From positions 1-33,641 of IMG/VR virus record IMGVR_UViG_3300031857_000743: DNA of 33,641 nt; one strand, written 5' to 3'. How positions within the stretch are numbered: the first letter of the stretch is position 1; every line of letters begins with the position of its first letter. The translations under genes were made by a program, and so were the position numbers. This document shows, piece by piece, positions 2,738 through 19,361 of this stretch. Origin of the DNA: a virus. The notes under the pieces are model-generated. The model saw nothing but the letters and a program-made list of their open reading frames with translations. It did no database searches and was not told the origin of the DNA.

Positions 2738-3490
2738 CTAGTAATACATAAATCGACCAGAAGTTCCATCCCATCCGCAAACTATCCAGTCTGTTTCAAT
2801 AACATCTTTTTCATATGGACGAGTAAAGTAATATGACAAAGTTTCAATATCATAATGTTTCATTGGGGCTTGATTTAGCAAATGAATTGTTGCTTCATTT
2901 ATATCAATCATTTTATCTAATTGAGTGCCGCCGAATGCATATAACACCGTGCAATATTGATGTATGCGATTATTGTTTTGTTCTGCTCGACGATCAATAA
3001 ATGAATAGTTCCAAGAATCATCCCAGTTGAAATTAAGCGGTCGTTTGAAAAATAATTTGTTTAAATTTTCAACATTAAACAGCGCATCATTTAAATGAAA
3101 GTAAAAGTATCTTCCGCAAGTTTTAATCACATAATCATATTGTTTTATTTCTTTTCTAAACTTCTTATAGAAGGTATTTAATAACAACGATTCGCATAAA
3201 CTTTTATTCGGATGCGTATTAACAATTTCAAATGCTTCTTGATCTAATTCTTTTAGTGGTATAAACTCAGTGTTCTTAAAGAAACGAAATGTGTCTTGAT
3301 ATTCTTTATAGATGTCTGATGAATCAACAACAACTATTTTTGCCTCTGGAAATGCAGCTTGTATTGAATTGACAGTAAAGATTGTTTGACGAAATCTTTC
3401 TTCGCTCGAAAAGATTGTGCGAACAGGGCTATATGTTAAGGGTGCATTGCGCGTTTGAATTGAGGATCCGACAATAAAAAGATTATTCAT
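2738..3490 (-). CDS. Putative GT-A-like glycosyltransferase
   Basis: This 250-residue protein has an N-terminal half compatible with a nucleotide-sugar-binding Rossmann-like fold. FSSEERFRQTIFTVNSIQAA (about residues 27-46) is followed by a KIVVVDSSD strand and loop (51-59). This arrangement occurs in phage proteins I remember being annotated as glycosyltransferases. A later Asp-Trp-Asp-Asp run and HYDIETLSYYF could contribute acidic residues, but I see no clear DXD motif. The gene overlaps the upstream GT4 gene by 8 bases and is followed 7 bases later by the oxygenase-like gene, so it sits inside a sugar-modification operon. The function rests on weak similarity and context. An alternative is a non-enzymatic member of this fold. 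Confidence 0.5.
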   Translation of the reverse strand: MNNLFIVGSSIQTRNAPLTYSPVRTIFSSEERFRQTIFTVNSIQAAFPEAKIVVVDSSDIYKEYQDTFRFFKNTEFIPLKELDQEAFEIVNTHPNKSLCESLLLNTFYKKFRKEIKQYDYVIKTCGRYFYFHLNDALFNVENLNKLFFKRPLNFNWDDSWNYSFIDRRAEQNNNRIHQYCTVLYAFGGTQLDKMIDINEATIHLLNQAPMKHYDIETLSYYFTRPYEKDVIETDWIVCGWDGTSGRFMYY

Positions 3491-4478
3491 AGAATTTATT
3501 CTTTATAACTTTTTCTAGATATCGACGATGCTGCTCGTGGATCTCCTCATCAGAGAAATTCAATCCCCATTCTCTACAATCAAATGGAGCAATCTTATCA
3601 ATACTCTCAATTGCGGTTAATAGGGATTTAAAATCTCGCACACGATATCCTGTTTGTCCCTCAAGAACAATCTCTGGAAATGCACCCCAATCAGTTGTAA
3701 TCACAGGAGTTCCTGATAGATTAGCCTCAATGATCATATTGCCGAATGGCTCAACATAATGCGTCAAACCAATCAATGCCTTTGCATTTTTTAATAGATG
3801 TTTTCGTTGTTCTGCATCAGCAACACCAAAGACCTCAACATGATCTGGAACTTTCTCATATCCCAATGCTTTGAGCGATCCAGGACCAGCAATGATAAGT
3901 TTTTTACCCCTCTTTTCTGTTGCTTGAATTGCAAGATGAATACCTTTCTCTTCGCATACTCGACCCAAAAATAAAAAGTAATCGTCTTTCTTTTCATTGT
4001 ACTCAAATTCACTGATTGTAAATGGATTACCAATTACATCATCGAACCAAGAAGGGCTCATGAGCATTCCGCGCTCGCCATAAAACATATGCATATTTGC
4101 ATATGAAGTGAACACACGATATGGCGCAAAGATGCCATTGGCTCTATATCCAATAGAAGGTTCAACTGGTTTGCAGTTTGGATTCATCTCACATGCGAGT
4201 TGATTGTCAACGCCAAAGAAACAAACAATCAAATCACCATCGCTTGCTCTCTTGCGAATTTCTTCGCCAGCAATCTCATTAAATCGTTTTATTTCTTTTG
4301 GTAATGTTGGAATATCGATATGCTCGCAATCGACTTGTGCGCCTGGAACTCCATAATGAATCATATGGAAATGCGGCGATAAATGTTTGATATATTTGTA
4401 TGCGTGGACAGCAAATGGGTCCACACGATTCATCAACCCTGTTGGATTGCGAGGATTTACCAATACATGGATTTTCAT
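3483..4478 (-). CDS. GT4-family (GT-B fold) glycosyltransferase
   Basis: This 331-residue protein is a recognisable GT-B glycosyltransferase. The C-terminal donor-binding half holds FLFLGRVCEEKGIHLAIQA (about 168-186), KLIIAGPGS (193-201) and HVEVFGVAD (213-221). It also has the EX7E motif in EPFGNMIIEA (Glu243, Glu251), followed by GTPVITTDWGAFPEIV, which contacts the nucleotide sugar. The N-terminal half has a less conserved acceptor domain. At 331 residues it is slightly shorter than many GT4 enzymes but appears complete. It is the first gene of the 4478-1424 operon, preceded by a GATAAATA late-promoter-like site. The sugar and acceptor cannot be read from sequence; virion-protein glycosylation fits its place beside fibre genes. 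Confidence 0.85.
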   Translation of the reverse strand: MKIHVLVNPRNPTGLMNRVDPFAVHAYKYIKHLSPHFHMIHYGVPGAQVDCEHIDIPTLPKEIKRFNEIAGEEIRKRASDGDLIVCFFGVDNQLACEMNPNCKPVEPSIGYRANGIFAPYRVFTSYANMHMFYGERGMLMSPSWFDDVIGNPFTISEFEYNEKKDDYFLFLGRVCEEKGIHLAIQATEKRGKKLIIAGPGSLKALGYEKVPDHVEVFGVADAEQRKHLLKNAKALIGLTHYVEPFGNMIIEANLSGTPVITTDWGAFPEIVLEGQTGYRVRDFKSLLTAIESIDKIAPFDCREWGLNFSDEEIHEQHRRYLEKVIKNKFYE

Positions 4479-7204: not shown

Positions 7205-10200
7205 TTACAAGAATACCGTATCTAATGTTCCAGTTCCTGTATTATAGTATACAACAACCTTTACAGTTCCAGTCGTATTTGCATATGCAACATTATTTGC
7301 AGCAACAATCGTATTTGATGTGAGAGTGCTTGTTGTTTTTGCAAATGTTAAGTTCGAGCTCGCACCAACACTGCCACCATCATTAAAGATGACTTGTGTG
7401 TCAGACCCTGCCACTGGACCAGTTGGTCCTTGTGGACCAGCAACACCTTGCGGACCTTGTGGACCTTGTGGTCCAGCAACACCCTGTGGTCCTTGCGGAC
7501 CTTGTGGACCAACATCACCAGTTGAACCAATCGGACCTTGTGGACCTTGAGGACCAGTATCACCTTGTGGACCTTGTGGTCCAGCGACACCTTGTGGACC
7601 CTGTGGTCCTTGCGGTCCAGTTACACCTTGTGGTCCTTGTGGTCCTTGTGGACCAGTATCGCCAGTAACACCCTGTGGACCTTGCGGACCTTGCGGACCA
7701 GTAGCACCTTGTGGTCCCTGTGGACCTTGTGGACCAGTATCACCAGTCAATCCTTGCGGACCTTGAGGACCCTGTGGTCCTTGTGGACCTTGCGGACCAA
7801 GCCCACCTTGTGGTCCCTGCGGTCCTTGAGGACCAGTAACTGAATCTCCCTGTGGTCCTTGTGGTCCTTGTGGACCTGCCACATTTGATGCATCGCCCTG
7901 TGGACCAGATGGTCCTTGTGGACCTTGTGGACCAAGATTACCTTGAACACCTTGTGGACCTTGAGGACCAACAATACCTTGAGGACCTTGAGGACCTTCT
8001 GGTCCTTGTGGACCTTGCGGTCCAGTTACACCTTGCGGACCTTGTGGTCCTTGTGGTCCTTGTGGACCCTGTGGACCTGCAGCACCAGTTTCACCAGTAA
8101 TACCTTGAACACCTTGCGGACCTTGTGGTCCCTGCGGACCTTGTGGACCCTCAACACCTTGCGGTCCTTGTGGTCCAGCAACACCCTGTGGACCTTGTGG
8201 ACCAAATACACCCTGTGGACCTTGAGGACCAGGAACTGTAGAAGCGTCGCCTTGTGGACCCTGTGGTCCTTGTGGACCTTGAGGTCCTTGTGGTCCAGCA
8301 ACACCTTGTGGTCCTGTTGGTCCTTGTGGACCTTGTGGACCTTCAACACCTTGTGGACCTTGTGGTCCTTGAGGACCATGATCACCTTGCGGACCTTGTG
8401 GACCAGCGACACCCTGTGGACCTTGCGGACCAGCGACACCCTGTGGTCCTTGTGGACCTTGAGGACCTTGTGGACCTTGTGGACCTGGGACATTTGAAAC
8501 ACCAGATGGTCCTTGTGGTCCTTGTGGTCCCTGCGGACCTTCAATACCTTGCGGACCTTGTGGACCCTGTGGTCCTTGTGGTCCTTGCGGACCCTGTGGT
8601 CCTTGTGGTCCTTGTGGACCGAGATCACTGATATTAATTGTACCAGCCATTGCCGCATGATTTTGGCAGACATAGTACAATGTGCTTGGTGCATTATACG
8701 GAACTTCGAAGAATATTTGACCGACATCGTCACCATTATTTGAGACGCCAGTATTATAAACATCACCAGAACTATATGCACCAGAAACAGTTTGAATCCA
8801 GAATGGATGACCAGATGCATTTACATCAAAAATATAAGTGAAACCGCGCAACAATGAAAGTGTTGGATCGTTTGCACCATCAATCACAAAATGATTTGTG
8901 CCACTATTTGTTACATCATAGGTTCTTGCGCCAGCAACACCTTGTGGTCCCTGCGGTCCTTGTGGACCTTGTGGACCTTGTGGACCTTGTGGACCAACTC
9001 CACCTTGTGGACCTTGCGGACCAGTTGAACCTTGCGGACCCTGTGGTCCTTGTGGTCCTTGTGGACCAACAATTGGACCAGCATCAATCCAACTTGAACT
9101 GCCTGAATTCCAAACATATAAGTGACCATCAGCAGTTACAATATATGCATCGCCGTCTGATGCGCCACCAGGAAGATTTCCTACAGTACTGACGGTGCCA
9201 AGAACTGTAATACCAGAACCTTGTGCACCAGATGGTCCCTGCGGTCCTTGTGGACCCTGTGGACCAACTCCACCTTGTGGACCTTGTGGACCAGTATCAC
9301 CTGTTGAACCTTGAGGACCTTGTGGTCCTTGAGGACCAGTTGGACCATGCGCACCAGTTGGACCTTGAGGACCAGTATTACCTGTTCCTCCTTGAGGTCC
9401 TTGAGGTCCTTGAGGACCAGCACCCTGTGGTCCTTGTGGTCCTTGTGGACCATAATCGCCAGTTAAACCTTGAATACCTTGTGCGCCTTGTGGACCTTGA
9501 GGACCAGTATCACCAGCGACACCTTGTGGACCTTGCGGACCAAACACACCTTGTGGTCCCTGCGGTCCTTGTGGACCCTGTGGACCCTGTGGACCATGAT
9601 CACCAGTTAGACCTTGAGGACCTTGTGGTCCTTGTGGACCAAACACACCTTGTGGTCCTTGTGGTCCTTGCGGACCAATATCACCTTGAGGACCTTGAGG
9701 TCCACCAGCACCTTGTGGACCTTGCGGACCAGCACTACCTGTCGCGCCCTGCGGACCTTGTGGACCTTGTGGTCCTTGAGGACCCATTGGTCCTTGTGGT
9801 CCAACAATTGGACCAACATCTGTCCATCCAGAAGTTCCAGTATCATAAACATATAAGTGTCCATTTGCGAGAACAATATATGCATCACCGTCAGCTGCGC
9901 TGCCTGGCAAATTACCAACATTTGCAACAGTTCCTTGAATAGTGATACCAGAACCTGCAGCACCTTGTGGACCCTGCGGTCCTTGTGGACCTTGTGGACC
10001 TTGTGGACCAGCGTCACCAACAACACCTTGCGGTCCTTGCGGACCAAAGTCGCCCTGCGAACCTTGTGGTCCTTGTGGACCTGATGGACCCTGCGGACCA
10101 ACATTTCCTAATGGACCAATGTCACCTTGTGGACCTGTTGGACCTTGTGGACCTTGTGGACCCTGTGGACCCTGTGCACCAACAGCACCTTGTGGACCTT

Positions 10201-10429
10201 GCGGTCCAGTTACACCTTGTGGTCCTTGTGGACCAAACACACCTTGTGGTCCTTGTGGTCCTTGCGGACCAATAACACCTTGTGGTCCCTGTGGACCTTG
10301 TGGTCCTTGCGGACCTTGTGGACCACCAGAAGGACCTGTTGGTCCAACAGCACCCTGAGGACCTGATGGACCCTGTGGACCAGTTAAACCTTGTGCGCCA
10401 CGACCTGTTGCAACTCTAACTGTAGTCAT
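7205..10429 (-). CDS. Collagen-like tail fibre protein with embedded globular modules
   Basis: This 1074-residue protein is mostly Gly-X-Y triplets, dominated by Gly-Pro-Gln, from about residue 11 to 1003, so it should form a collagen-type triple helix. Three globular insertions interrupt it. Two are near-duplicate modules of about 49 residues (160-208 and 405-453) containing [11 protein letters not shown] or its variant and DGDAYIV..GHLYV. The third is a cupredoxin-like domain at 501-603. The last ~71 residues, from [16 protein letters not shown] to the end, are a non-collagenous cap. The register slips in at least two places (GPSGGPQG near residue 35, QGAGPQG near 337). The ATG overlaps the upstream stop as ATGA, and a lectin gene follows after 1 base. 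Proline is abundant but mainly in the X position. Bacterial and phage collagens are usually fibre stalks, which fits this cluster. Confidence 0.88.
7421..10399 (-). repeat. Collagen-coding 9-bp tandem repeat array
   Basis: The array consists of Gly-Pro-Gln and related triplets with three globular interruptions. Gly, Pro and Gln synonymous codons alternate along it (for example GGA, GGT and GGC; CCA and CCG; CAA and CAG), which lowers exact DNA identity between units. Such arrays can still change length by slippage or recombination. Confidence 0.85.
8621..8929 (-). other. Cupredoxin-like domain inside the collagen-like fibre
   Basis: Residues 501-603 form a compact non-collagen domain. [20 protein letters not shown] is followed by PFWIQT, then a Gly/Asn-rich loop, then [20 protein letters not shown] and AMAGTI. 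His541, Cys588, His591 and Met594 (Cys-x2-His-x2-Met) reproduce the order of type-1 copper ligands in cupredoxins, with short ligand-loop spacing. Related domains occur in other marine phage proteins as I remember them. Copper binding is possible but unproven. Confidence 0.6.
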
Positions 10430-10761
10430 TTCGTTACCTGCGGTAGAACTGTTATAATGCCTTCAACGAGGCGCGTTGTAACATTTGAATTGTCTATTTG
10501 CTTTACATCAAACAAGTAACGACCAGCCTTAATGTTGGAAGTAGTGGCTGCATTTAAACTTAATATAACATTTCCAGTTGATGTGTTTGCGACTGTCACA
10601 GTTAAATTCGCTGTGACAGAGGAAGAATAGAATGATTTGCGCATTGAGGATGTAAATGAGTAATTAGCAATGTTCAGAACACTGCCATCATCCTTAATCA
10701 AGTCTAGATCAACGGTAAAATCTGCACCCTGGTCCAGATCCAATTCTATAAACTGCGCCAT
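10426..10761 (-). CDS. Small beta-rich virion protein upstream of the collagen-like fibre
   Basis: This 111-residue protein begins [20 protein letters not shown] and contains alternating strands such as [20 protein letters not shown] and a closing [10 protein letters not shown]. Small immunoglobulin-like or BppU-N-like phage proteins starting with a Gln-Gly-Ala-x-Phe motif are commonly found next to tail fibre genes, where they may help attach a fibre. I do not recognise it firmly. It is the first gene of the collagen unit, has a perfect TATAAATA promoter-like site and an AGGA ribosome binding site, and its stop overlaps the collagen-like gene start by 4 bases, indicating translational coupling. 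Confidence 0.6.
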
Positions 10762-10786
10762 TTATGAAATCCTATTATTATTGCTC

Positions 10787-10794
10787 TATTTATA
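10787..10794 (-). promoter_or_regulatory. Late promoter (exact TATAAATA) for the collagen-like unit
   Basis: The minus strand carries an exact TATAAATA in the 67-base gap between genes, 25 bases before the start codon at 10761. This is the T4 late promoter consensus recognised by gp55 with gp33 and the clamp. It lies in a small perfect inverted repeat (CTATTT, 3-base loop, AAATAG at 10786-10800), which may be incidental. It is the best promoter candidate in the window. Confidence 0.7.
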
Positions 10795-10828
10795 AAATAG
10801 GGGTTTCGCAGAGCAGAATGGTGTCTTT

Positions 10829-11374
10829 TTAGTTTACTTCGATAACGACTACTGTTACAGGAGTAGAATTGGCAGTAATCGTCTTTGTTATAGTATTCCC
10901 TGCAGGGTATACATCGACGAATATCTTTCTCGAATTTATTGTTAACTTCTGCTCTCCGTTAACAAGAAAATCCTCTCCGTAAACAAACAAAAATGTTTTC
11001 TTATCACTAGTATGAGAGATCGATTCATTAACAACATTCGCTGCTTTAAATGTACACTGAGAAGTTGTTACATTTTCGGTAGTAATCTGAACAAATGCTC
11101 CGTCAATAACACTTGCATTTACTGATTTAGTATAGTCCCATGGTTCGATATATGAAGACCAGGTATTTGTATAAAGATTATTCGCAAGATAAACATCATT
11201 GTCCTCATTCGTACATTTGGTTGTCCCTGCGAGAGCCAGTAAATAATTCATTGTGTTAGAGGGGAAATATTGAAAGGTTGCGTCTTTATCGAATGTTATC
11301 GTGCAGCCTTCTGCTGAGACTGAACAATTACCCGATTCATATATCTTAAATTTCGCTCTCTTTATTGCACTCAT
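10829..11374 (-). CDS. Unrecognised beta-rich protein in the modification operon
   Basis: I do not recognise this 181-residue protein. It looks beta-rich and soluble, with no signal peptide or membrane segment. Four cysteines lie at about residues 17, 24, 54 and 107, in GNCSVSAEGCTITF, TTKCTNED and TTSQCTFKA. The C-terminus has repeated Thr-Val strands (NTITKTITANSTPVTVVVIE). It starts 2 bases after the GT60-like gene and precedes the late promoter of the collagen unit. It is therefore the last gene of the oxygenase operon and could be a small structural protein or a substrate of the neighbouring enzymes. Neither role can be shown from sequence. Confidence 0.55.
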   Translation of the reverse strand: MSAIKRAKFKIYESGNCSVSAEGCTITFDKDATFQYFPSNTMNYLLALAGTTKCTNEDNDVYLANNLYTNTWSSYIEPWDYTKSVNASVIDGAFVQITTENVTTSQCTFKAANVVNESISHTSDKKTFLFVYGEDFLVNGEQKLTINSRKIFVDVYPAGNTITKTITANSTPVTVVVIEVN

Positions 11375-11376
11375 CT

Positions 11377-12336
11377 TTACTCTCTATTTGGAACTTCCCA
11401 ATCGACTTCTACACTCGGATCTGCCTTCAGATGCCTAGAGAGTGCTCGTTCCTCTAATTTTCTATTTATATAATCGACACCCGAATACTTGCGGAAAGCC
11501 TCGAGTTGCTCCTCGTCGAGAGAATAGAGATAATTGCTGAGTTCCTTTTCAGACCTTTCTTGATTCATTCGAAGTCGATGTGCATTTGCCACTGGGTTGA
11601 CAGTTTGTTTCGTCTCGTAATTTGAAGAGCGAAGATAGTGATAAACCTTTGCTCGACGCATATGATAGATCTTATATCCCTTTACGAAAGAACTGATAAC
11701 GAACATCTGCTCTTCGCCTTCGAAGAAGATATTTGTATTGTATCCAACCTCGCGGACCCATTTGGCAGGAGCAAAGAAGTTCCCAGCGCAAATGTGGCGA
11801 GATGGAGCAACTACATCTCGAGCAGGAACCCATGGACCATGAGCATGAAGTCTCATATTCTTATCGAATTGATAGTATCCAAGATTGACTGAAATGTCGT
11901 CAGTCAATGTATGCTTGGTAATTCTATCACCATCAAGATCAAAGTTCTTTGTGCCACAGGTCAAGAGAACTTTATCATGTCCTGCAACTTTACAGGCTTG
12001 CATATAATCAAGAACTAGATAATTGTCCCAACCTTTATCAAAGAGCATATGAGAATCGATTTGATACTGAAACTCTTCTTCATAGATTTGCATCGCATTG
12101 ATACCGCGAGCCCAAACTACACCGTCAGAATATTCTGGATCAATTCGTTTATAACGAACTCGTTTGTGAGTTGCTAGATGCGGATACTTTGTCTTTAAAC
12201 TATCTTCTAATGCAGTTTGTTCAAAAACGCCATAAACAATTTGATTGCGACCAGATTCATTTTCCATGGCACTTTCAAGAGTTGGTGCGAGTAGTTTGTC
12301 TCTATATGAGCAAACATTTACAAATATCTTTTTCAT
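11377..12336 (-). CDS. GT60-like polypeptide GlcNAc transferase (Gnt1/PF11397-like)
   Basis: This 319-residue protein matches the GT60 pattern of Dictyostelium Skp1 GlcNAc transferase and relatives. It has an N-terminal IFVNVCSYRDKLLAPTL (4-20), GVVWARGINAMQIYEEE (72-88), and QIDSHMLFDKGWD (92-104), where Asp94-Ser-His96 stands in for the DXD metal motif. CAGNFFAPAKWVREV (183-197), FFEGEEQMF (204-212) and HMRRAKVYHYLR (225-236) complete it. In the family, UDP-GlcNAc is the donor and the acceptor is hydroxyproline (Skp1) or Thr (trypanosome mucins). The C-terminal ~80 residues, from about 250, look helical. The ATG overlaps the upstream stop (ATGA), within the operon led by a 2OG oxygenase. 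The family is recognised by motifs, while the phage acceptor is unknown. Confidence 0.78.
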   Translation of the reverse strand: MKKIFVNVCSYRDKLLAPTLESAMENESGRNQIVYGVFEQTALEDSLKTKYPHLATHKRVRYKRIDPEYSDGVVWARGINAMQIYEEEFQYQIDSHMLFDKGWDNYLVLDYMQACKVAGHDKVLLTCGTKNFDLDGDRITKHTLTDDISVNLGYYQFDKNMRLHAHGPWVPARDVVAPSRHICAGNFFAPAKWVREVGYNTNIFFEGEEQMFVISSFVKGYKIYHMRRAKVYHYLRSSNYETKQTVNPVANAHRLRMNQERSEKELSNYLYSLDEEQLEAFRKYSGVDYINRKLEERALSRHLKADPSVEVDWEVPNRE

Positions 12337-13076
12337 TCAAAATCCTTGATCAATTTAAATTTCTTTCGGATCATAAAATATCTTCTGTAAAAATTCGTTT
12401 CATGAAACCATTTAGACACTTTACTACAATCTTTTTCGTATTGTGTTGCTGGTCCATAAGAAGCAACAATATCTTTAGATGTGATAAATGGAATTACCTG
12501 CAGTACAGGATCACCTGCTTTAATTTCAACCTCGCAAGGTCGTTTTGCTGAGAAAATAAAATTAATAACTGTGAATCCATTATAGTCAACAACTCCAGGA
12601 TAAACATAAAGATCATCTAAAAAGTTAGAATGGAAAAAGGCAGGAAGGAGTAAACACGAAACCTTACCATATCCATGAATTCTCCATGCTCCAGGGCAAT
12701 TCCAAATTGTATTTTCTATTCCACCTTCTGGAGTATATGCACCATCAGTAATATCTCGCGCCATTTGTTGTGGTTGTTTTACCATCGTTGCTCGTTTTAG
12801 TGCATCTTCACCTCTGCTACCAGCAATAACTACTGTTCCTGCTTTGTTTGCTTTGATGTGAAAATTAGTCCATGCTGGAATAATATATCCCAAACGAGCA
12901 TAATCATGCATTCCAGGACATCCTGGAAATCTATAGTCACCAAATTTACTCTCTTGATGTTCCTTAAGAGGTTTCAACTCTTTTGCGAGAACTGGAGGAT
13001 AGTGTGGGTAGACTGTTCCTTCTACAGTGTCAGCAAATTTGAAGTCAATATCATTTTTTCGAAACCAATTAACCAT
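12333..13076 (-). CDS. DUF6065-like protein, paralogue B
   Basis: This 247-residue protein shares order and motifs with its upstream neighbour. Both have an ARLGYIIP / MSLGYMIP segment (here 60-67) followed by a D/NxHI strand. Both then have an invariant-looking region ending CPGAWRI (127-133, cf. TAPGWS), LLLPAFFHSNF, YPGVVDYNGFTVINF (159-173) and KAGDPVLQVIPF (186-197). This is the pattern I associate with DUF6065, found in marine phages and some bacteria. The fold may be a beta-sandwich or double-stranded beta-helix; I see no HxD iron motif. It starts 2 bases after paralogue A and its stop overlaps the GT60-like start. The C-terminal RRYFMIRKKFKLIKDFE is basic. Molecular function is unknown. 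Confidence 0.62.
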   Translation of the reverse strand: MVNWFRKNDIDFKFADTVEGTVYPHYPPVLAKELKPLKEHQESKFGDYRFPGCPGMHDYARLGYIIPAWTNFHIKANKAGTVVIAGSRGEDALKRATMVKQPQQMARDITDGAYTPEGGIENTIWNCPGAWRIHGYGKVSCLLLPAFFHSNFLDDLYVYPGVVDYNGFTVINFIFSAKRPCEVEIKAGDPVLQVIPFITSKDIVASYGPATQYEKDCSKVSKWFHETNFYRRYFMIRKKFKLIKDFE

Positions 13077-13078
13077 AA

Positions 13079-13816
13079 TTAATCCCTCTTTCTCAATTCA
13101 TATGTATAGTGATGTGTTCTCATGCCTTGAGTTTGCTGAATTTTTTCAATAGTTTTCATTTCTTTCGCAGTCATTTTTCGCACTTTTGGTTTTTTCGGAA
13201 ATGAATCTCTCTTGATTGGGATAGCAGTAATGATTGGTGTCCCTGCGGGTAGATGTATATCTGCATCATAGATTTTTAAAACTGCTGGAAAATTAACTTC
13301 CTTTGGATATACATCTGTATCTACAAACCCAGACAAACAAGTAAATGGTTGGTCAAAATGATTTAGCGGTGGTACAAAAAGAGTTGACCAACCTGGAGCT
13401 GTTTTGATCACCCATCGATTAATAAATTTGAGTGCATTTCCATGTTTGATGCCTAATTTGTTTTTTCCACCTAATTGAATTGCATCATGAAACTCACAAG
13501 CAACTATCCCTGGAGGGTTTTTGACTTCAATTTGAGTGTTATCGTGATTGCTGCGAATATGAAGATCTGCTACGAGCGGAATCATATATCCAAGAGACAT
13601 TGCATCCAGCATTGGCAAACACTTTTTTGCACTCATAAGTTTGCTACCAAATGCGTCTCTTTGGTCTTCTGGTCCTTCACAAGTAGGCGCAAGATCTTTA
13701 AACCACTCTGGAAGATTTTTAATCGCTGCTTTTGGTTCTGGAATAAGATCTTCTAGATTTGGATGGCAATAAAACTCTATAATCTCATTACCAAACATTC
13801 TTTTCAAATTTAACAT
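13079..13816 (-). CDS. DUF6065-like protein, paralogue A
   Basis: This 245-residue protein has the fullest DUF6065-like pattern in the window. An N-terminal EFYCHPNLEDLIPEPKAAIK is followed by NLPEWFKDL, KKCLPMLDAMSLGYMIPLVA, FINRWVIKTAPGWSTLFVPP, CLSGFVDTDVYPKEVNFPAV and LPAGTPIITAIPIKRDSF. I chose the ATG at 13814-13816, which overlaps the oxygenase stop by 7 bases. A longer reading to 13840 would need a TTG start and a larger overlap, and an ATG at 13796-13798 is also possible. The C-terminal ~40 residues are Lys/Thr-rich. Function is unknown. Its place between a 2OG oxygenase and a GlcNAc transferase suggests a role in the same modification process. Confidence 0.68.
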   Translation of the reverse strand: MLNLKRMFGNEIIEFYCHPNLEDLIPEPKAAIKNLPEWFKDLAPTCEGPEDQRDAFGSKLMSAKKCLPMLDAMSLGYMIPLVADLHIRSNHDNTQIEVKNPPGIVACEFHDAIQLGGKNKLGIKHGNALKFINRWVIKTAPGWSTLFVPPLNHFDQPFTCLSGFVDTDVYPKEVNFPAVLKIYDADIHLPAGTPIITAIPIKRDSFPKKPKVRKMTAKEMKTIEKIQQTQGMRTHHYTYELRKRD

Positions 13817-14412
13817 GATCTTTCGCCCATCACCCAACAAACAAGAGATTTACGAGTTCCTTTAGTTACAGGTGCAACTCGATGGGGCATCCAGGATGCA
13901 AAGAAAATTGCATCGCCTCTTTTTGGTTTAATTGTCATTGGCTCATCAACACGACCATGAAGAACGCATTGAAATTCACCACCCTCATAATCCTCAGGAT
14001 CGGTTAACACTATGGTTGCGCTAATTTTTCTTTCAAATTTGGAATAAGTATTGCCAGCATCGATATGCCAGTCATAGTGCTGCTTATTTTTTGCTTTGTA
14101 GACAGTATATTGAAAATTTTCAAATCCGTCAATTTCATACATGAAATGATCATAATTGACCATCGCTGTCAAATGAGCAAATTTTTGGAATAGCCAGTCT
14201 GAGTTTTGTTCGTGGTTAATCCACATAACATCGCTGTCGCGAACTTTTTTATTTACTTGACCTGCACCACCACCGCCACCAACTCCACCTCGTTGGAACT
14301 TTTGCAGATCTTCAAGATCAATGATCTTGTCTATTTCTTCTTGCGTAAATGCTTCATTTGCGATACAAAATTGATTCAATTCGCGTACATATTTTTGTAC
14401 AGGATATGGCAT
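13810..14412 (-). CDS. 2OG-Fe(II) oxygenase, prolyl-4-hydroxylase / PiuC-like
   Basis: This 200-residue enzyme belongs to the prolyl-4-hydroxylase-like 2-oxoglutarate/Fe(II) oxygenases. The iron ligands are His116 and Asp118 in HYDWHIDAG and His177 in SWMPHRVAPV, and Arg187 in TKGTRKSLVCWV should bind the 2-oxoglutarate carboxylate. YTVYKAKN, ISATIVLTDPEDYEGGEF and KPKRGDAIFF are the usual beta-helix strands. A Gly-rich stretch (GGVGGGGGAG, 42-51) lies in the N-terminal part, where relatives have a shorter loop. A GAGGTGA ribosome binding site (14416-14422) precedes the ATG. It heads the operon that contains two DUF6065-like genes and the GT60-like transferase. Substrates in relatives include proline in proteins, and proline hydroxylation is an inference here. 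T4-like marine phages often carry such enzymes. Confidence 0.85.
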   Translation of the reverse strand: MPYPVQKYVRELNQFCIANEAFTQEEIDKIIDLEDLQKFQRGGVGGGGGAGQVNKKVRDSDVMWINHEQNSDWLFQKFAHLTAMVNYDHFMYEIDGFENFQYTVYKAKNKQHYDWHIDAGNTYSKFERKISATIVLTDPEDYEGGEFQCVLHGRVDEPMTIKPKRGDAIFFASWMPHRVAPVTKGTRKSLVCWVMGERSC

Positions 14413-14492: not shown

Positions 14493-17042
14493 TTACTCAA
14501 GCGTCACATTTACTTGTCCACCTGGAGGAACAGTCACTGGATAGTTACTATTGTCAGGATAGTCATAGTATGAGACGACAGTTGGAGAAACTGTTGGGGC
14601 AGTGCCAGGATTCCCAGCAAATCCAGATAGATCAACAGGACCGCCAGGAAGATATACACCAAGAACTGTTGTTGGGGTTCCAACATTTCCTGGAGTATAT
14701 GCAGTTACTGGTCTTGCAGCTTCTGGTTGATTGGCAATTGGGTAAGCGACATTATAATTGGTGTTATAATTGACAGTCCATGCGGTTGATGGACGAGCCG
14801 CTTCTGGTTGCGTTGCGATTGGATACACAACATTATAATTTGAATTATAATTAATCGTCCATGCAGTAGCAGGTCGGGTTGCTTCTGGTCGGTTAGCAAT
14901 TGGATACACAGTATTATAGTTAGTGTTATAATTAATCGTCCATGCAGTCACAGGTCGATTTGCTTCAGGATAGACTGTATTGTAATTTGTTGACCAAGTT
15001 GTTGCTGGACGAGCTTGTTCTGGTTGTGTGGCAATTGGGTATGCCACATTATAATTAGATGTCCAAGCAGTTACTGGTCGAGTGGCTTCTGGTCTGTTTG
15101 CAATTGGGTAAGCGACATTATAATTGGTGTTATAGTTGATCGTCCAAGCATTTACTGGTCGAGTGGCTTCTGGATATGCAACATTATAGTTAGTGTTATA
15201 ATTAATCGTCCAAGCATTTACAGGTCGATTTGCTTCTGGATAGATTGTATTATAGTTCGTTGACCAAGTTGTTGCTGGACGAGCTTGTTCTGGTCTATTT
15301 GCAATTGGATAAGCAACATTATAGTTTGTTGACCAAGCAGTTACTGGTCGACCCGATTCTGGCTGAGTTGCAATCGGATAAGCAACATTGTAATTGGTGT
15401 TATAAGTGATAGTATATGCAGTTACTGGTCGACCAGACTCTGGTTGATTTGCGATTGGATAAGCAACATTGTAATTGGTATTATACAAAATAGTGTATGC
15501 ATTGATCGGTTGATTCGCAATCGGATATGCAACATTATAGTTTGTATTATACAAAATAGTGTATGCATTAATTGGCTGATTTGCAATCGGATATGCGATA
15601 TTATAATTGGTATTGTAGTTAATTGCATATGCAGTTGCTGGTTGAGTACCAATCGGATACGCAACATTATAGTTTGTGTTATAGTTCGCATTATTGCCAA
15701 CAGGTGTGCAAACAAATGCGGTATAGGTTTCAACAACCAGTGCTGGAAAGAAGTAATAAAATGTTTCTGATTGATAGAATGGTGATGGGCAACCTGGCTG
15801 CGCTGGATCTCCTGCACCGCTGTAGTAGAAACTGCCGCTGTTACTATTATAAGTATAACTATTACTATAATGATTAAAACTATTTGCTGGATTGTAGTTT
15901 GCAACTGGTTGATTTGCAACTGGATAAACAACATTATAGTTTGTTGACCAAGCAGTTACTGGTCTTGCAGCTTCTGGTCTATTCGCAACTGGATATGCTA
16001 CATTATAGTTTGTTGACCATGCAGTCACTGGGCGACCTTGTTCTGGTCTATTCGCAACTGGATATGCTACATTATAGTTTGTTGACCAAGCAGTTACAGG
16101 TCGACCTTGCTCTGGACGATTTGCAATTGGATACGCGACATTATAATTTGTGTTATAGGTTATGCTATACGCCGTTGCTGGTCGACCAGATTCTGGCTGA
16201 TTCGCGATCGGATATGCAACATTATAGTTGGTATTATAAGTGATTACCCAAGCATTCGCTGGTTGGTTGGCAATTGGATATGCAACATTATAGTTTGTAT
16301 TATAGTTGATAGTCCATGCATTTGCAGGCTGATTTGCGATTGGATATGCCACATTATAATTAATAGACCAAGTAGTTGCTGGTCGCGCTGCCTCTGGACG
16401 ATTTGCAATCGGATATGCCACATTGTAGTTAATAGACCAAGTAGTGGCTGGTCTTGCAGCTTCTGGTTGGTTGGCAATCGGATATGCCACATTATAATTC
16501 GTGTTATAATTAATCGTCCAAGCTGTTGCTGGTTGATTCGCTAATGGATAAGCAACATTGTAATTTGTATTATAATTGATCGTCCAAGCGGTTGCGGGTT
16601 GATTCGCGATCGGATACACGACATTATAGTTAATGGTCCATGCAGTTGATGGACGAGTGGCTTCTGGCTGATTCGCAATCGGATACGCGACATTATAGTT
16701 TGTATTGTAATTGATCGTCCAAGCAGTGGAAGGACGAGCAGCCTCTGGTTGATTCGCCAAAGGATAGGCTACATTATAATTCGTGTTGTAGTTGATGGTC
16801 CAAGCAGTAGATGGTCGAGCGGCTTCTGGTTGATTCGCGATCGGATATGCGACATTATAGTTGGTGTTGTAATTGATTGTCCAGGCAGAAGAAACTGGAG
16901 CATTACCTGAACCGCCACGACCTGTGACAGTCCCTTTATATCGACCATATGGGATTGTTAAAGAGGAAGGTGCATTAAAAGTTTGCGATCCACGGGAACC
17001 ACCACCCAACCAACTTTTACCTAAATCCGTACTTCTTGGCAT
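14493..17042 (-). CDS. Asn-Tyr-Asn / Ala-Tyr-Pro repeat fibre protein, paralogue B
   Basis: This 849-residue protein starts with a glycine-rich TFNAPSSLTIPYGRYKGTVT and GRGGSGN cap (20-47). It is then made of 22- or 27-residue repeats (NYNTNYNVAYPIANQP, optionally EAARP or ESGRP, then xTAW). A unique island at about 390-455 splits the repeats. It contains FNHYSNSYTYNSNSGSFYY and the only two cysteines of the protein (Cys418, Cys445). After more repeats it closes with TPTTVLGVYLPGGPVDLSGF, a Ser/Thr/Pro linker and YPVTVPPGGQVNVTLE. Both ends and the island layout match the adjacent gene at 17121-19361. A GGAAAG ribosome binding site and an AATAAATA promoter-like site precede it. A virion fibre or adhesin role is inferred; no known repeat family is recognised. 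Confidence 0.72.
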   Translation of the reverse strand: MPRSTDLGKSWLGGGSRGSQTFNAPSSLTIPYGRYKGTVTGRGGSGNAPVSSAWTINYNTNYNVAYPIANQPEAARPSTAWTINYNTNYNVAYPLANQPEAARPSTAWTINYNTNYNVAYPIANQPEATRPSTAWTINYNVVYPIANQPATAWTINYNTNYNVAYPLANQPATAWTINYNTNYNVAYPIANQPEAARPATTWSINYNVAYPIANRPEAARPATTWSINYNVAYPIANQPANAWTINYNTNYNVAYPIANQPANAWVITYNTNYNVAYPIANQPESGRPATAYSITYNTNYNVAYPIANRPEQGRPVTAWSTNYNVAYPVANRPEQGRPVTAWSTNYNVAYPVANRPEAARPVTAWSTNYNVVYPVANQPVANYNPANSFNHYSNSYTYNSNSGSFYYSGAGDPAQPGCPSPFYQSETFYYFFPALVVETYTAFVCTPVGNNANYNTNYNVAYPIGTQPATAYAINYNTNYNIAYPIANQPINAYTILYNTNYNVAYPIANQPINAYTILYNTNYNVAYPIANQPESGRPVTAYTITYNTNYNVAYPIATQPESGRPVTAWSTNYNVAYPIANRPEQARPATTWSTNYNTIYPEANRPVNAWTINYNTNYNVAYPEATRPVNAWTINYNTNYNVAYPIANRPEATRPVTAWTSNYNVAYPIATQPEQARPATTWSTNYNTVYPEANRPVTAWTINYNTNYNTVYPIANRPEATRPATAWTINYNSNYNVVYPIATQPEAARPSTAWTVNYNTNYNVAYPIANQPEAARPVTAYTPGNVGTPTTVLGVYLPGGPVDLSGFAGNPGTAPTVSPTVVSYYDYPDNSNYPVTVPPGGQVNVTLE
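14700..16886 (-). repeat. 66-81 bp tandem repeats coding NYN...AYPIANQP units (gene B)
   Basis: Long stretches repeat units of about 22 or 27 codons, broken by the non-repeated island at roughly 15678-15875. Neighbouring units are highly similar at DNA level but differ at synonymous sites and in whether the EAARP/ESGRP/EQARP block is present. Unit gain and loss by recombination is likely, and exchange with the similar array in the adjacent gene is possible. Confidence 0.82.
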
Positions 17043-17120: not shown

Positions 17121-19361
17121 TTATTCAATCTGAATATCAACATATCCACCTGGAGGCACTGAGACTGGGTGTGTCTGATAGTCTGGGAAACTCCAATAGA
17201 CAACTTCTGTTGCTGGAACATAAGGAGCAACTGTAGAAACTGGTCCTCCAGGAAGATATACACCAAGAACTGTTGTTGGGGTGCCCACAGTTCCAGGAGT
17301 GTATGCGGTTATCGGCTGATTTGCGATCGGCTGAGTTGCAATCGGATATGCGATATTGTAGTTTGTACTATAGGTTGTTGCTGGGCGACCAGACTCTGGT
17401 TGATTCGCGATCGGATAAGCAACATTATAGTTTGTAGTGTAGTTGATAGTCCAAGCAGTAACTGGTCTGTTGGCTTCTGGATATGTGATTGTATTGTAGT
17501 TAGTATTATAGTTAGTCGCCCATGCATTTACGGGTCGATTCGCGATCGGATATACACCAGCGTTGTAATTTGTTGACCATGCATTAGAAGGTTGATTGGC
17601 AATTGGTTGATTCGCGATCGGATACACACCAGTATTGTAATTAGTTGACCAAGTTGTTGCTGGCTGATTGGCAATTGGTTGATTCGCGATCGGATACACA
17701 CCAGTGTTGTAATTAGTTGACCATACTGTTGCTGGTTGGTTAACAATTGGTCTTGCTTGTTCTGGATAAACACCAGCATTATAGTTGATTGTCCATGCAG
17801 TTGCTGGTTGAGTAGCAATTGGATAAATTAGATTATAGTTGATTGTCCACGCAGTTATCGGTCGATTTGCTTCTGGTCCATTTGCGACATTATAATTGAC
17901 TGTCCATGCAGTTGCTGGTCGATTTGCAATTGGATAAACACCAGGAGCATAAGTTACACCATAATTAATTGTCCATGCAGTTGCTGGTCGATTTGCAATT
18001 GGATAAACACCAGCATTATAATTGACCGTCCATGCAACTGCTGGTCTTGCTTGTTCTGGTCTATTTGCAATTGGATAAACGCCAGCATTGTAATTAATTG
18101 CCCAAGCAGTGGATGGTCTCCCAGATTCATTTCCAGGTACTGTATCGCATGTGCTTTGTGAATAAGTATAGTAATATACTAGATAGCCACCTGGACTTAT
18201 GAACGATAAATTATCTTGTCCTGGAAAAGTAGTGGCATAGGATACATATCCAGGAAGTGGAGACATTGTGCCATTTTCGCTTGGTGGACATGGACCAGTT
18301 CCATACACATTCCAAGATTGACTACCTGACCCAAAATTTTGTTCATCAAAGAAATATTGATTTATTTGACCAGTCCATGTTGTATTTGGTGCATTATATG
18401 TGATAGACCATGCAGTAATTGGTCTGTTGGCTTCTGGATAGACAATAGCATTATAATTAGTGTTGTAATTGATAACCCATCCAGTCACAGGTCGATTTGC
18501 TTCAGGATAGACAATAGCATTATAGTTTGTAGTCCATGCATTTACAGGTCGATTACCAGCATTATATGCAGTGACTGGATATGTTAATGCATTATAATTA
18601 GTCGTCCATGCAGTTACTGGACGAGCTTGTTCTGGATAAATTAAATTATAATTAATTGACCAAGTTGTTGCTGGTCGAGTGGCTTCTGGACCGTTTGCAA
18701 TATTATAGTTCGTTGACCAAGTTGTTACTGGACGAGCTTGTTCTGGATATGTGAGAGCATTATAGTTGATAGTGTAGTTAGTTACCCATGCATTTGCTGG
18801 TTGGTTGGCTATTGGATATGTGATTGTATTATAATTGGTGTTATAGTTAGTCGCCCATGCATTTGCTGGTTGGTTGGCTATTGGATATGTGATTGCATTA
18901 TAATTGGTACTATAATTTGTAACCCAAGCAGTTGCTGGTTGGTTGGCTATTGGATATGTGATTGTATTATAGTTTGTTGACCAAGTTGTTGCTGGCTGAT
19001 TTGCGATTGGTTGATTTGCAATTGGATAAACACCAGCGTTATAGTTGATTGACCAAGTTGTTGCTGGTCGAGTGGCTTCTGGCTGAGTTGCAATCGGATA
19101 GATGACATTATAATTTGGTGAGTATGTAATTGTCCAAGCAGTAGCTGGTTGATTTGCAATTGGATAAGCAACATTATAATTGGTATTATAATTTGTAACC
19201 CAAGCAGATGCTACTGGTGAGTTTCCAGATCCACCACGACCTGAAACTTTAGCAACATGGCGACCATAGTCGATTGTAATGCTTCCTGGAGCATTAAATG
19301 TAGTTGTGCCTCTAGACGGTCCAACTATCCATGTTTTATTTAACTCAAACGGTCTTGGCAT
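17121..19361 (-). CDS. Asn-Tyr-Asn / Ala-Tyr-Pro repeat fibre protein, paralogue A
   Basis: This 746-residue protein is a tandem paralogue of the next gene. It has the same N-terminal cap (TTFNAPGSITIDYGRHVAKV then SGRGGSGN) and repeats such as AWTINYNAGVYPIANRP and TTWSTNYNTITYPIANQP. A unique island (about 330-412) holds its only two cysteines, Cys358 in GPCPPSENG and Cys405 in QSTCDTVPG. The closing segment is TPTTVLGVYLPGGPVS... ending HPVSVPPGGYVDIQIE. The island sequence is unrelated to that of paralogue B even though its position and bracketing cysteines are similar, so this may be the specificity part. The ATG follows the beta-repeat fibre stop by 5 bases, so both are probably co-transcribed. 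Fibre or adhesin function is inferred. Confidence 0.72.
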   Translation of the reverse strand: MPRPFELNKTWIVGPSRGTTTFNAPGSITIDYGRHVAKVSGRGGSGNSPVASAWVTNYNTNYNVAYPIANQPATAWTITYSPNYNVIYPIATQPEATRPATTWSINYNAGVYPIANQPIANQPATTWSTNYNTITYPIANQPATAWVTNYSTNYNAITYPIANQPANAWATNYNTNYNTITYPIANQPANAWVTNYTINYNALTYPEQARPVTTWSTNYNIANGPEATRPATTWSINYNLIYPEQARPVTAWTTNYNALTYPVTAYNAGNRPVNAWTTNYNAIVYPEANRPVTGWVINYNTNYNAIVYPEANRPITAWSITYNAPNTTWTGQINQYFFDEQNFGSGSQSWNVYGTGPCPPSENGTMSPLPGYVSYATTFPGQDNLSFISPGGYLVYYYTYSQSTCDTVPGNESGRPSTAWAINYNAGVYPIANRPEQARPAVAWTVNYNAGVYPIANRPATAWTINYGVTYAPGVYPIANRPATAWTVNYNVANGPEANRPITAWTINYNLIYPIATQPATAWTINYNAGVYPEQARPIVNQPATVWSTNYNTGVYPIANQPIANQPATTWSTNYNTGVYPIANQPIANQPSNAWSTNYNAGVYPIANRPVNAWATNYNTNYNTITYPEANRPVTAWTINYTTNYNVAYPIANQPESGRPATTYSTNYNIAYPIATQPIANQPITAYTPGTVGTPTTVLGVYLPGGPVSTVAPYVPATEVVYWSFPDYQTHPVSVPPGGYVDIQIE
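17300..19208 (-). repeat. Tandem repeats coding NYN...YPIANQP units (gene A)
   Basis: Units of about 17-27 codons repeat through most of the gene and are more divergent in length than those of gene B. They are interrupted by a unique island at about 18125-18375. The repeat consensus is shared between the two genes, which suggests duplication of the whole gene followed by separate array evolution. Confidence 0.8.

Follow-up and report, generated by a model that had tools for sequence, protein, structure and literature searches.

A conserved phage gene module that combines a prolyl-hydroxylase-like oxygenase with a GT60 glycosyltransferase, and an adjacent Asn/Pro-rich repeat protein as its candidate substrate

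The Operon and Its Two Enzymes

The 33,641-base IMG/VR virus record IMGVR_UViG_3300031857_000743, which was analyzed over its full length and is called the window below, contains T4-type tail genes and, amid its tail and fiber genes, an operon encoding a 2-oxoglutarate (2OG)-Fe(II) oxygenase and a glycosyltransferase of family GT60. Read along the minus strand, the order is two tandem genes for repeat proteins (17121-19361 and 14493-17042), the oxygenase gene (13810-14412), two genes of the DUF6065 family (13079-13840 and 12333-13076), the GT60 gene (11377-12336), an orphan gene for a protein of 181 amino acids (aa), a gene for a protein of 111 aa, and the gene for a collagen-like fiber. A first-pass annotation of this DNA had proposed that the oxygenase and the GT60 enzyme act in turn on the fiber. 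The coordinates that it gave for the open reading frames (ORFs), which lie on the minus strand, were all correct; the two DUF6065-family genes between the enzymes were absent from it.

The oxygenase (200 aa) matches PF13640 with 66.1 bits (cut-off 27) and PHROG 61 with 133 bits, which bears out its earlier description as a prolyl-hydroxylase-like 2OG enzyme. His116, Asp118, His177, and Arg187 are found at the positions then assigned to them. An alignment of 40 rows, the window oxygenase among them, shows no variation at the first three, and R187 is located outside the invariant and nearly invariant columns. With an HxD...H triad and a 2OG-binding Arg, the protein has the features of the 2OG-Fe(II) oxygenase superfamily. 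An AlphaFold model calculated with a 40-row alignment (pLDDT 91) found its best match in the PDB in the P4H of P. putida with EF-Tu (Z 21.5, rmsd 2.8, 180 residues aligned). Other matches were the PHD of Trichoplax (Z 20.9), PHD2 (Z 20.5), the PHD of Dictyostelium (Z 17.6), an algal P4H with (Ser-Pro)5 (Z 19.6), the viral collagen P4H of PBCV-1 (Z 18.9), and PiuC (Z 18.7). As modeled, the enzyme is nearest to the peptidyl prolyl hydroxylases, and a prolyl-hydroxylase fold is predicted. By sequence alone, the nearest solved structure is PiuC (E 2.6e-06), and, with its match to PHROG 61, the enzyme resembles both PiuC/PKHD proteins and the 2OG oxygenases of cyanophages. A plain assignment to PiuC/PKHD was rejected, since the scores remained below all four NCBIfam cut-offs (NF003974, 65.4 vs. 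143; NF003975, 43.4 vs. 180; NF003972, 32.3 vs. 399; NF003973, 32.0 vs. 336) and the model is closer to the P4H of P. putida than to PiuC. Thus, of the initial label P4H/PiuC-like, the first half is supported by the predicted fold, whereas the second holds for general sequence similarity and not for family membership.

The GT60 protein (319 aa) matches PF11397 with 90.9 bits (cut-off 21). No unrelated GT-A family scored comparably: the sole other Pfam match listed was LisH, with 12.4 bits and below its cut-off. The previously reported motifs QIDSHMLF, GVVWAR, and AGNFFA are all present, and Q92-I-D-S-H96 and W75-A-R77 are invariant in an eight-row alignment that includes the window protein. 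We take the QxDSH motif and the upstream AR motif to be hallmarks of the family. No solved structure was found to be related to GT60 by sequence at E-values up to 1.

A Conserved Module Directly Downstream of a Repeat-Protein Gene

All collected loci were screened for contiguous 2OG, DUF6065, DUF6065, and GT60 genes, together called the module, and the immediate upstream neighbor of the oxygenase gene was read. The full module is present in 29 loci, which fall into five clusters at 60% identity of GT60 (single linkage); the lowest GT60 identity to the window is 38%. L052 and L135 were left out as duplicates of counted contigs, and loci shorter than 4 kb were excluded from some of the neighborhood counts. 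In all 29 modules, the directly upstream gene, separated from the oxygenase gene by 10-81 nt, encodes a member of a single family of homologous proteins that are rich in Asn, Pro, and Tyr or Phe and mostly repetitive. The members of this family in the window are the NYN/AYP proteins, which had initially been listed as alternative substrates and are now favored. The first, encoded at 14493-17042 with a gap of 81 nt to the oxygenase gene, consists of 849 aa with NYNVAYPIANQP repeats and is the proposed main substrate. Its tandem paralogue (17121-19361; 746 aa), which matches the C-terminal profile of the family with 105 bits and also matches the N-terminal profile, is a second candidate.

An iterated C-terminal profile built from the window protein found 43 of 6,876 ORFs, i.e., the 29 module genes, 14 tandem paralogues, and nothing else. 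The N-terminal profile matched 23 of the 29, and in the six that were missed the ORF ends at most 2 bases from the edge of the locus. A reciprocal search with the NYN protein yielded 14 loci, all of them on contigs already found via GT60. In addition, a pattern for NFN repeats was found in 27 stretches, 4 known and 23 new, and both PF11397 and PF13640 were present in each of the 23 new records. As these phages are close relatives, the result indicates linkage and does not represent 23 events independent of each other.

The cores of the repeats vary. They are NYNVAYPIANQP in the clade of the window, NGPANYNAPT and YNIVPGN in L169, NGPQNFNAPT in L176, YPYAGTNP in L145, and PGTPATYNAPV in L198; Asn and Pro are common to all of them. 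Tyr was considered as the modified residue but is an unlikely target, since repeats of the L176/L182 type carry Phe instead and contain about 1% Tyr.

It could be argued that 2OG and glycosyltransferase genes are so abundant near the fiber genes of marine phages that they became neighbors by chance and that their order is meaningless. Indeed, 2OG genes are frequent in cyanophages: 371 phage records, mostly of Synechococcus phages, matched the 2OG query. Moreover, EGLN3-like 2OG oxygenases are described as widespread in phages of marine bacteria in the Phold paper (PMC12774648), so the oxygenase alone is not new. However, chance would have to account for a fixed order of four genes in five clusters, for 2OG-GT60 fusions, and for the concentration of 2OG genes in those DUF6065 loci that also contain GT60 (both described below), and we consider it very improbable.

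The Collagen-Like Fiber

The collagen-like fiber (7205-10429 on the minus strand; 1074 aa) matches PF01391 with 342 bits and contains 239 G-X-Y triplets in runs. If it were the substrate, as first proposed, its Pro residues would be hydroxylated and subsequently modified with N-acetylglucosamine (GlcNAc). In the window, GT60 and the fiber gene downstream of it are separated by 948 nt, and the cluster of the window has a downstream G-X-Y fiber in 17 of its 19 loci; L123 is without one, L005 is cut, and the best one of L008 is 5 kb away. A viral collagen prolyl hydroxylase is among the structural matches of the oxygenase, and Mimivirus is reported to hydroxylate and glycosylate its own collagen (PMC8968730).

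Outside the window's cluster, however, the fiber does not accompany the module. In the other four clusters, no downstream G-X-Y fiber was found in L145, L169, L176, L198, L211, L229, and L244; with L123, the fiber is missing in eight loci, in which 2.9 to 9.5 kb of downstream sequence was examined. L229 has an ORF with 25 G-X-Y triplets on the other, upstream side, L182 has only a G-X-Y frame on the opposite strand at 6.9 kb, and L073, L243, and L005 contain too little downstream sequence to judge. Furthermore, Pro occupies position X 172 times and position Y never, which agrees with a caveat already raised in the initial annotation, and Pro at Y is the residue of classical collagen prolyl 4-hydroxylation. 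A T4-like late-promoter motif may additionally separate the fiber from the operon, but this is a weak point. The late promoter originally ascribed to the fiber itself is doubtful: TATAAATA at 10787-10794 (minus strand) precedes the gene at 10426-10761 and not the fiber gene, the start of which overlaps the end of that gene, and the motif has three matches in the window with 2.36 expected by chance. Considering the restriction of the fiber to one cluster, the absence of Pro at Y, and the presence of the repeat gene upstream of every module, modification of the fiber is improbable. The repeat protein is the likeliest target, because the operon directly follows its gene in the relatives found.

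The DUF6065 Proteins

The first of the two DUF6065 proteins (13079-13840; 253 aa) matches PF19541 with 32 bits (cut-off 26.6) and phrog_7084 with 156 bits. The second (12333-13076; 247 aa), a divergent copy that was aligned with the first, has no Pfam match of its own and joins the family only through phrog_7084 (52 bits). A model of the first copy (pLDDT 85.2) indicates a dUTPase-like fold, as all 50 PDB entries listed as matches were dUTPases (best Z 10.4, rmsd 3.2, 120 residues aligned). In an alignment of 215 members of the family, from which proteins of less than 200 aa were left out, C74, D79, G84, D92, S152, D174, G200, P202, and P208 are kept at 87% or more. D92, G150-x-S152, D174-x-D176, and G200-x-P202 are located inside the region matched to the dUTPase superfamily, and, as judged by eye, the conserved Asp and Ser residues there may correspond to the dUTPase motifs I-IV. 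In contrast to the dUTPases, which it resembles in predicted fold, the first DUF6065 protein has a longer chain and no dUTPase Pfam match, and the identity is 9-16%. A literature search found no paper on DUF6065.

Among 103 loci of at least 4 kb selected for DUF6065, a 2OG gene was present within 3 kb in 35, GT60 in 17, both in 14, and neither in 65; therefore, DUF6065 is not exclusive to the module. 2OG genes were found in 14 of the 17 loci with GT60 vs. 21 of the 86 without it (Fisher p 1e-5, with relatedness ignored). In all, 52 phage records match DUF6065, HF1/HF2-like haloviruses included, and the one halovirus region that was examined contained no GT60 or oxygenase as judged by profiles. 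Arrays of several 2OG and DUF6065 genes, with no GT60 in the locus, are present in L156 (4664-13139), L220, L206, and L235; a polyproline-like FFPPFFPFFP repeat protein precedes them in L156 and L220, and a similar one is located nearby in L235.

The predicted fold of the DUF6065 protein points to nucleotide chemistry, and the GT60 gene of phage XacN1 is located near genes for DNA polymerase, RNase H, a NUDIX protein, and a carbamoyl transferase. Possibly, the repeat gene is a mere neighbor, and the target of the operon is a host factor, DNA, or a nucleotide, in analogy to DNA bases that become hydroxylated and glucosylated. However, the oxygenase belongs to PF13640, its model resembles prolyl hydroxylases, and neither TET nor JBP proteins were among the matches listed. 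Also the position of the operon among tail and fiber genes and its strict linkage to the repeat gene are difficult to reconcile with this explanation, which we regard as decidedly improbable.

GT60 Without Oxygenase and Thr/Ser-Pro Repeats

When a DNA pattern for the GT60 motif QID-x-H-x2-F-x3-WD was run against IMG/VR, at least 120 stretches were found. Of those listed, 80 out of 80 encode a protein with the motif, and all five that were scanned singly (L031, L035, L068, L073, and L082) match PF11397 above the cut-off. Therefore, GT60-type proteins are common in uncultured viruses, with the proviso that this pattern scan, like three others in this study, gives a sample and not a census. In 50,697 records of cultured phages, a GT60 query of the 415-aa type had three matches (XacN1, CM1, and RAS14), and none was found for the GT60 of the window, for its repeat protein, or for the DNA of the operon; matches of the repeat protein may be masked by the low-complexity filter of BLAST.

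In 102 viral GT60 loci without oxygenase or DUF6065, the ORF directly upstream is strongly Thr/Ser-Pro (T/S-P)-rich in 22 of the 80 loci with room for it. The downstream ORF is T/S-P-rich in 0 of 81 and other ORFs in 35 of 985 (Fisher p 5e-12 for 22/80 vs. 35/985, again with relatedness ignored). Mucin-like Thr/Pro repeat genes (TPTPTPTNTPT) directly precede viral GT60 in L031, L048, L062, L065, L067, L072, L074, L075, L087, L092, L102, L112, L114, L117, L130, L137, and others. This arrangement may represent a mucin-type O-glycosylation in phages.

These loci bear on the module as well. The GT60 enzymes of trypanosomes act on Thr, and Thr is present in all module repeats at 7-15%. The two enzymes may therefore act separately on the repeat protein, the oxygenase on Asn or Pro and GT60 directly on Thr, and the T/S-P-rich genes upstream of GT60 loci that lack the oxygenase agree with such an activity. 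However, upstream T/S-P repeats and an adjacent oxygenase are mutually exclusive (0/45 vs. 35/157, in a set that contains related sequences), as would be predicted for an oxygenase that supplies the acceptor. Median Thr/Ser content of the repeats is 15.4% in the module vs. 33.3% in the mucin-like proteins without oxygenase, a set that was chosen for T/S-P richness, whereas Pro content is similar (11.2 vs. 13.1%). It fits these data that GT60 uses Thr/Ser where these residues are plentiful and that the oxygenase supplies hydroxyls where they are not. In the reverse test, GT60 was located beside the repeat gene in 2 of the 57 viral loci with a T/S-P repeat ORF and sufficient room, and any GT60 match was present in 7 of 118 loci with T/S-P repeats. 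Hence, such repeats are common without GT60 and the association is one-way, which also counts against a separate action of the two enzymes; we consider it rather unlikely.

2OG-GT60 Pairs in Bacteria

In bacterial and archaeal genomes, at least 117 loci with the GT60 motif were found, 116 of them with a GT60 ORF. The oxygenase profile marks 17 of these 116, ten of which are from SAR86 according to their record titles. The profile had drifted, as it included L305 and L313, in which no family was found with Pfam, so that 17 of 116 is an upper figure. Of the 17, six were scanned with Pfam, which confirmed a 2OG domain in L261, L300, L345, and L367 and not in L305 and L313. In the alphaproteobacterial L345 (780-4721), a single ORF of 1,313 aa combines GT60, AhpC/TSA, 2OG_3, and 2OG_4. 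In the likewise alphaproteobacterial L300 (1-6299), eight GT60 stretches and a 2OG domain are located in one ORF, together with an AhpC/TSA match just below the cut-off. Seven SAR86 genomes (L261, L264, L272, L282, L307, L310, and L319), with exactly one PF13640 gene each, contain a divergent pair of 2OG and GT60 genes; here, the oxygenase beside GT60 was called by the profile and checked directly with Pfam in one genome. In Saprospiraceae (L367) and in the viral L082, a protein that combines GT60 with an O-fucosyltransferase is encoded beside a 2OG gene. Such fusions of GT60 with a GDP-fucose protein O-fucosyltransferase domain (PF10250) are present in L082 (495-4502), L068 (6230-9847), and L367 (478-6284), and the gene adjoining the fusion in L082 and L367 shows, besides its 2OG domain, a second 2OG match below threshold.

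In 28 of these genomes, which comprise about 102.6 Mb as the sum of rounded sizes, 44 copies of PF13640 were counted, or 0.43 per Mb; at this rate, 116 loci of 8 kb should contain about 0.4 such neighbors by chance. When mapped onto a GT60 tree with 248 domains, the adjacent oxygenase (46 of 230 scorable) requires at least 11 changes, in a set that is enriched for the clade of the window because it includes loci of that clade fetched by similarity. GT60 domains covering less than 55% of the profile and duplicates were dropped, and scoring was confined to rows that had the label or sufficient room, which were 46 plus 184 rows for the oxygenase and 36 plus 174 for T/S-P. Thus, both enzymes are confirmed, and their pairing is a recurrent unit, found in the conserved phage module, in bacterial fusions, and as neighbors in SAR86. 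The synteny with collagen-like genes that was to accompany the pairing does not extend beyond one cluster.

A Model for Modification of the Repeat Protein

With somewhat better than even confidence, we propose that the operon modifies a virion protein and that the adjacent Asn/Pro/Tyr-rich repeat protein is the substrate of both the 2OG and the GT60 steps. The repeat protein, and its paralogue, would be produced just ahead of its own modifying enzymes. The oxygenase would then hydroxylate the repeats, most likely at their prolines, and, in analogy to the Skp1 pathway, GT60 would add a sugar, most likely alpha-GlcNAc, onto the hydroxyl thus formed, to give a virion glycoprotein. The two DUF6065 proteins, of which at least one has a predicted dUTPase-like fold, may assist by holding the substrate or by handling nucleotides. 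By analogy to Skp1, for which the precedent is clear, this two-step hydroxylation-glycosylation chemistry is plausible, although unproven.

Several observations weigh against this proposal. The chemistry is predicted from sequence and models only. Related phages share whole neighborhoods, and therefore the 29 modules and the 23 NFN-repeat records are not independent; the five clusters are a fairer count. Furthermore, an oxygenase is missing near the majority of the viral GT60 genes sampled, as one was found within 3 kb in 10 of 105 GT60-motif loci of at least 4 kb. The XacN1 gene has the different surroundings mentioned above, and the genes around GT60 in RAS14 are annotated as hypothetical only. 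In the regions around GT60 that were examined in these two phages, no ORF passed the repeat or T/S-P test, and no match to the oxygenase or DUF6065 profiles was found. The protein upstream of the module in L073 is weakly repetitive, with 6-7% Pro. Finally, Thr and Asn are also frequent in the repeats, so modification of Asn or direct modification of Thr is possible.

Other Genes in the Window

The 181-aa protein at the end of the operon (10829-11374, minus strand) had no matches in Pfam, PHROG, and NCBIfam and shows 27-40% identity in more distant relatives. The 111-aa protein (10426-10761, minus strand) is tail-fiber-associated, with matches to phrog_1084 (74 bits) and phrog_3304 (L-shaped tail fiber assembly; 70 bits). 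A Gp8-like baseplate protein is encoded at 30228-32234, and a head-tail adaptor gene is also present. Downstream of the fibers, a glycosyltransferase group 1 gene (3483-4478) and a GT2 gene (1424-2173) are kept in near relatives, where the locus extends there; as a lead only, their products could extend the sugar. Beside the GT2 gene, at 2173-2730, a DUF6445 protein (53.7 bits) is encoded, which is also kept in relatives and the start of which, by eye, resembles 2OG oxygenases.

In Prochlorococcus phage P-SSM2 (L529; 19526-31840), an annotated PiuC gene is located between tail-fiber-like genes, and the fiber-like gene near it matches the window fiber over residues 499-603 only. A cyanobacterial host was considered via photosystem genes and was not supported: PF00124 was present in 0 of 24 records, all of which are fragments.

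Significance and Comparison With Known Systems

A literature search, outside which most subscription journals fell, found no description of a phage 2OG-GT60 unit and no paper on GT60 in bacteriophages, on mucin-like phage proteins with a glycosyltransferase and tail fiber, or on PiuC. If our proposal is correct, Skp1-type chemistry would move into the prokaryotes, via a phage and bacterial version, as a small operon with an adjacent candidate substrate. It would also provide a compact enzyme set for glycosylated repeat proteins, account for some of the many 2OG oxygenases in marine phages, and offer an initial clue to DUF6065. A broader and more speculative idea, to which we attach clearly less than even confidence, is that phages, and certain bacteria as well, possess a self-contained system in which a dedicated Asn/Pro-rich surface protein of low complexity first receives new hydroxyl acceptors from the oxygenase and is then glycosylated, which would form a virion coat like the hydroxyproline-rich glycoproteins of plants. 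This system would be derived from a simpler GT60 system of mucin-type on Thr/Ser, and the pair of DUF6065 proteins with dUTPase fold would represent a new class of helpers.

The collagen-modifying enzyme of Mimivirus is a lysyl hydroxylase. That virus is likewise reported to hydroxylate and glycosylate a protein of its own, but the enzymes in the window are a PF13640 oxygenase and GT60, and their conserved neighbor is not a collagen.

The substrates of the GT60 enzyme of Trypanosoma cruzi are mucins, and viral GT60 genes without oxygenase often follow Thr/Pro-rich mucin-like genes. The T. cruzi enzyme, a polypeptide alpha-GlcNAc transferase, is assigned to the same family as the window enzyme (PMC6939170). 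In contrast, the module in the window adds an oxygenase and DUF6065 proteins, and its repeats are poorer in Thr/Ser.

The closest likeness is to the Skp1 pathway of Dictyostelium and Toxoplasma, where PhyA/P4HA acts before Gnt1. According to the same paper, Gnt1 is a GT60 enzyme that adds alpha-GlcNAc to the hydroxyproline of Skp1, and protists are known to form hydroxyproline-linked GlcNAc with a 2OG-GT60 pair (PMC6939170). Both systems share a GT60 enzyme and a 2OG oxygenase with a prolyl-hydroxylase fold, in the window as predicted, and 2OG and GT60 form a linked unit in the 29 modules and are fused in L345 and L300. Whereas the Skp1 pathway modifies one Pro of Skp1, the predicted system in the window is a phage operon with a low-complexity neighbor of many repeats and two DUF6065 genes between the enzymes. 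Relative to Skp1-type chemistry, the phage setting and a third component, DUF6065, are new.

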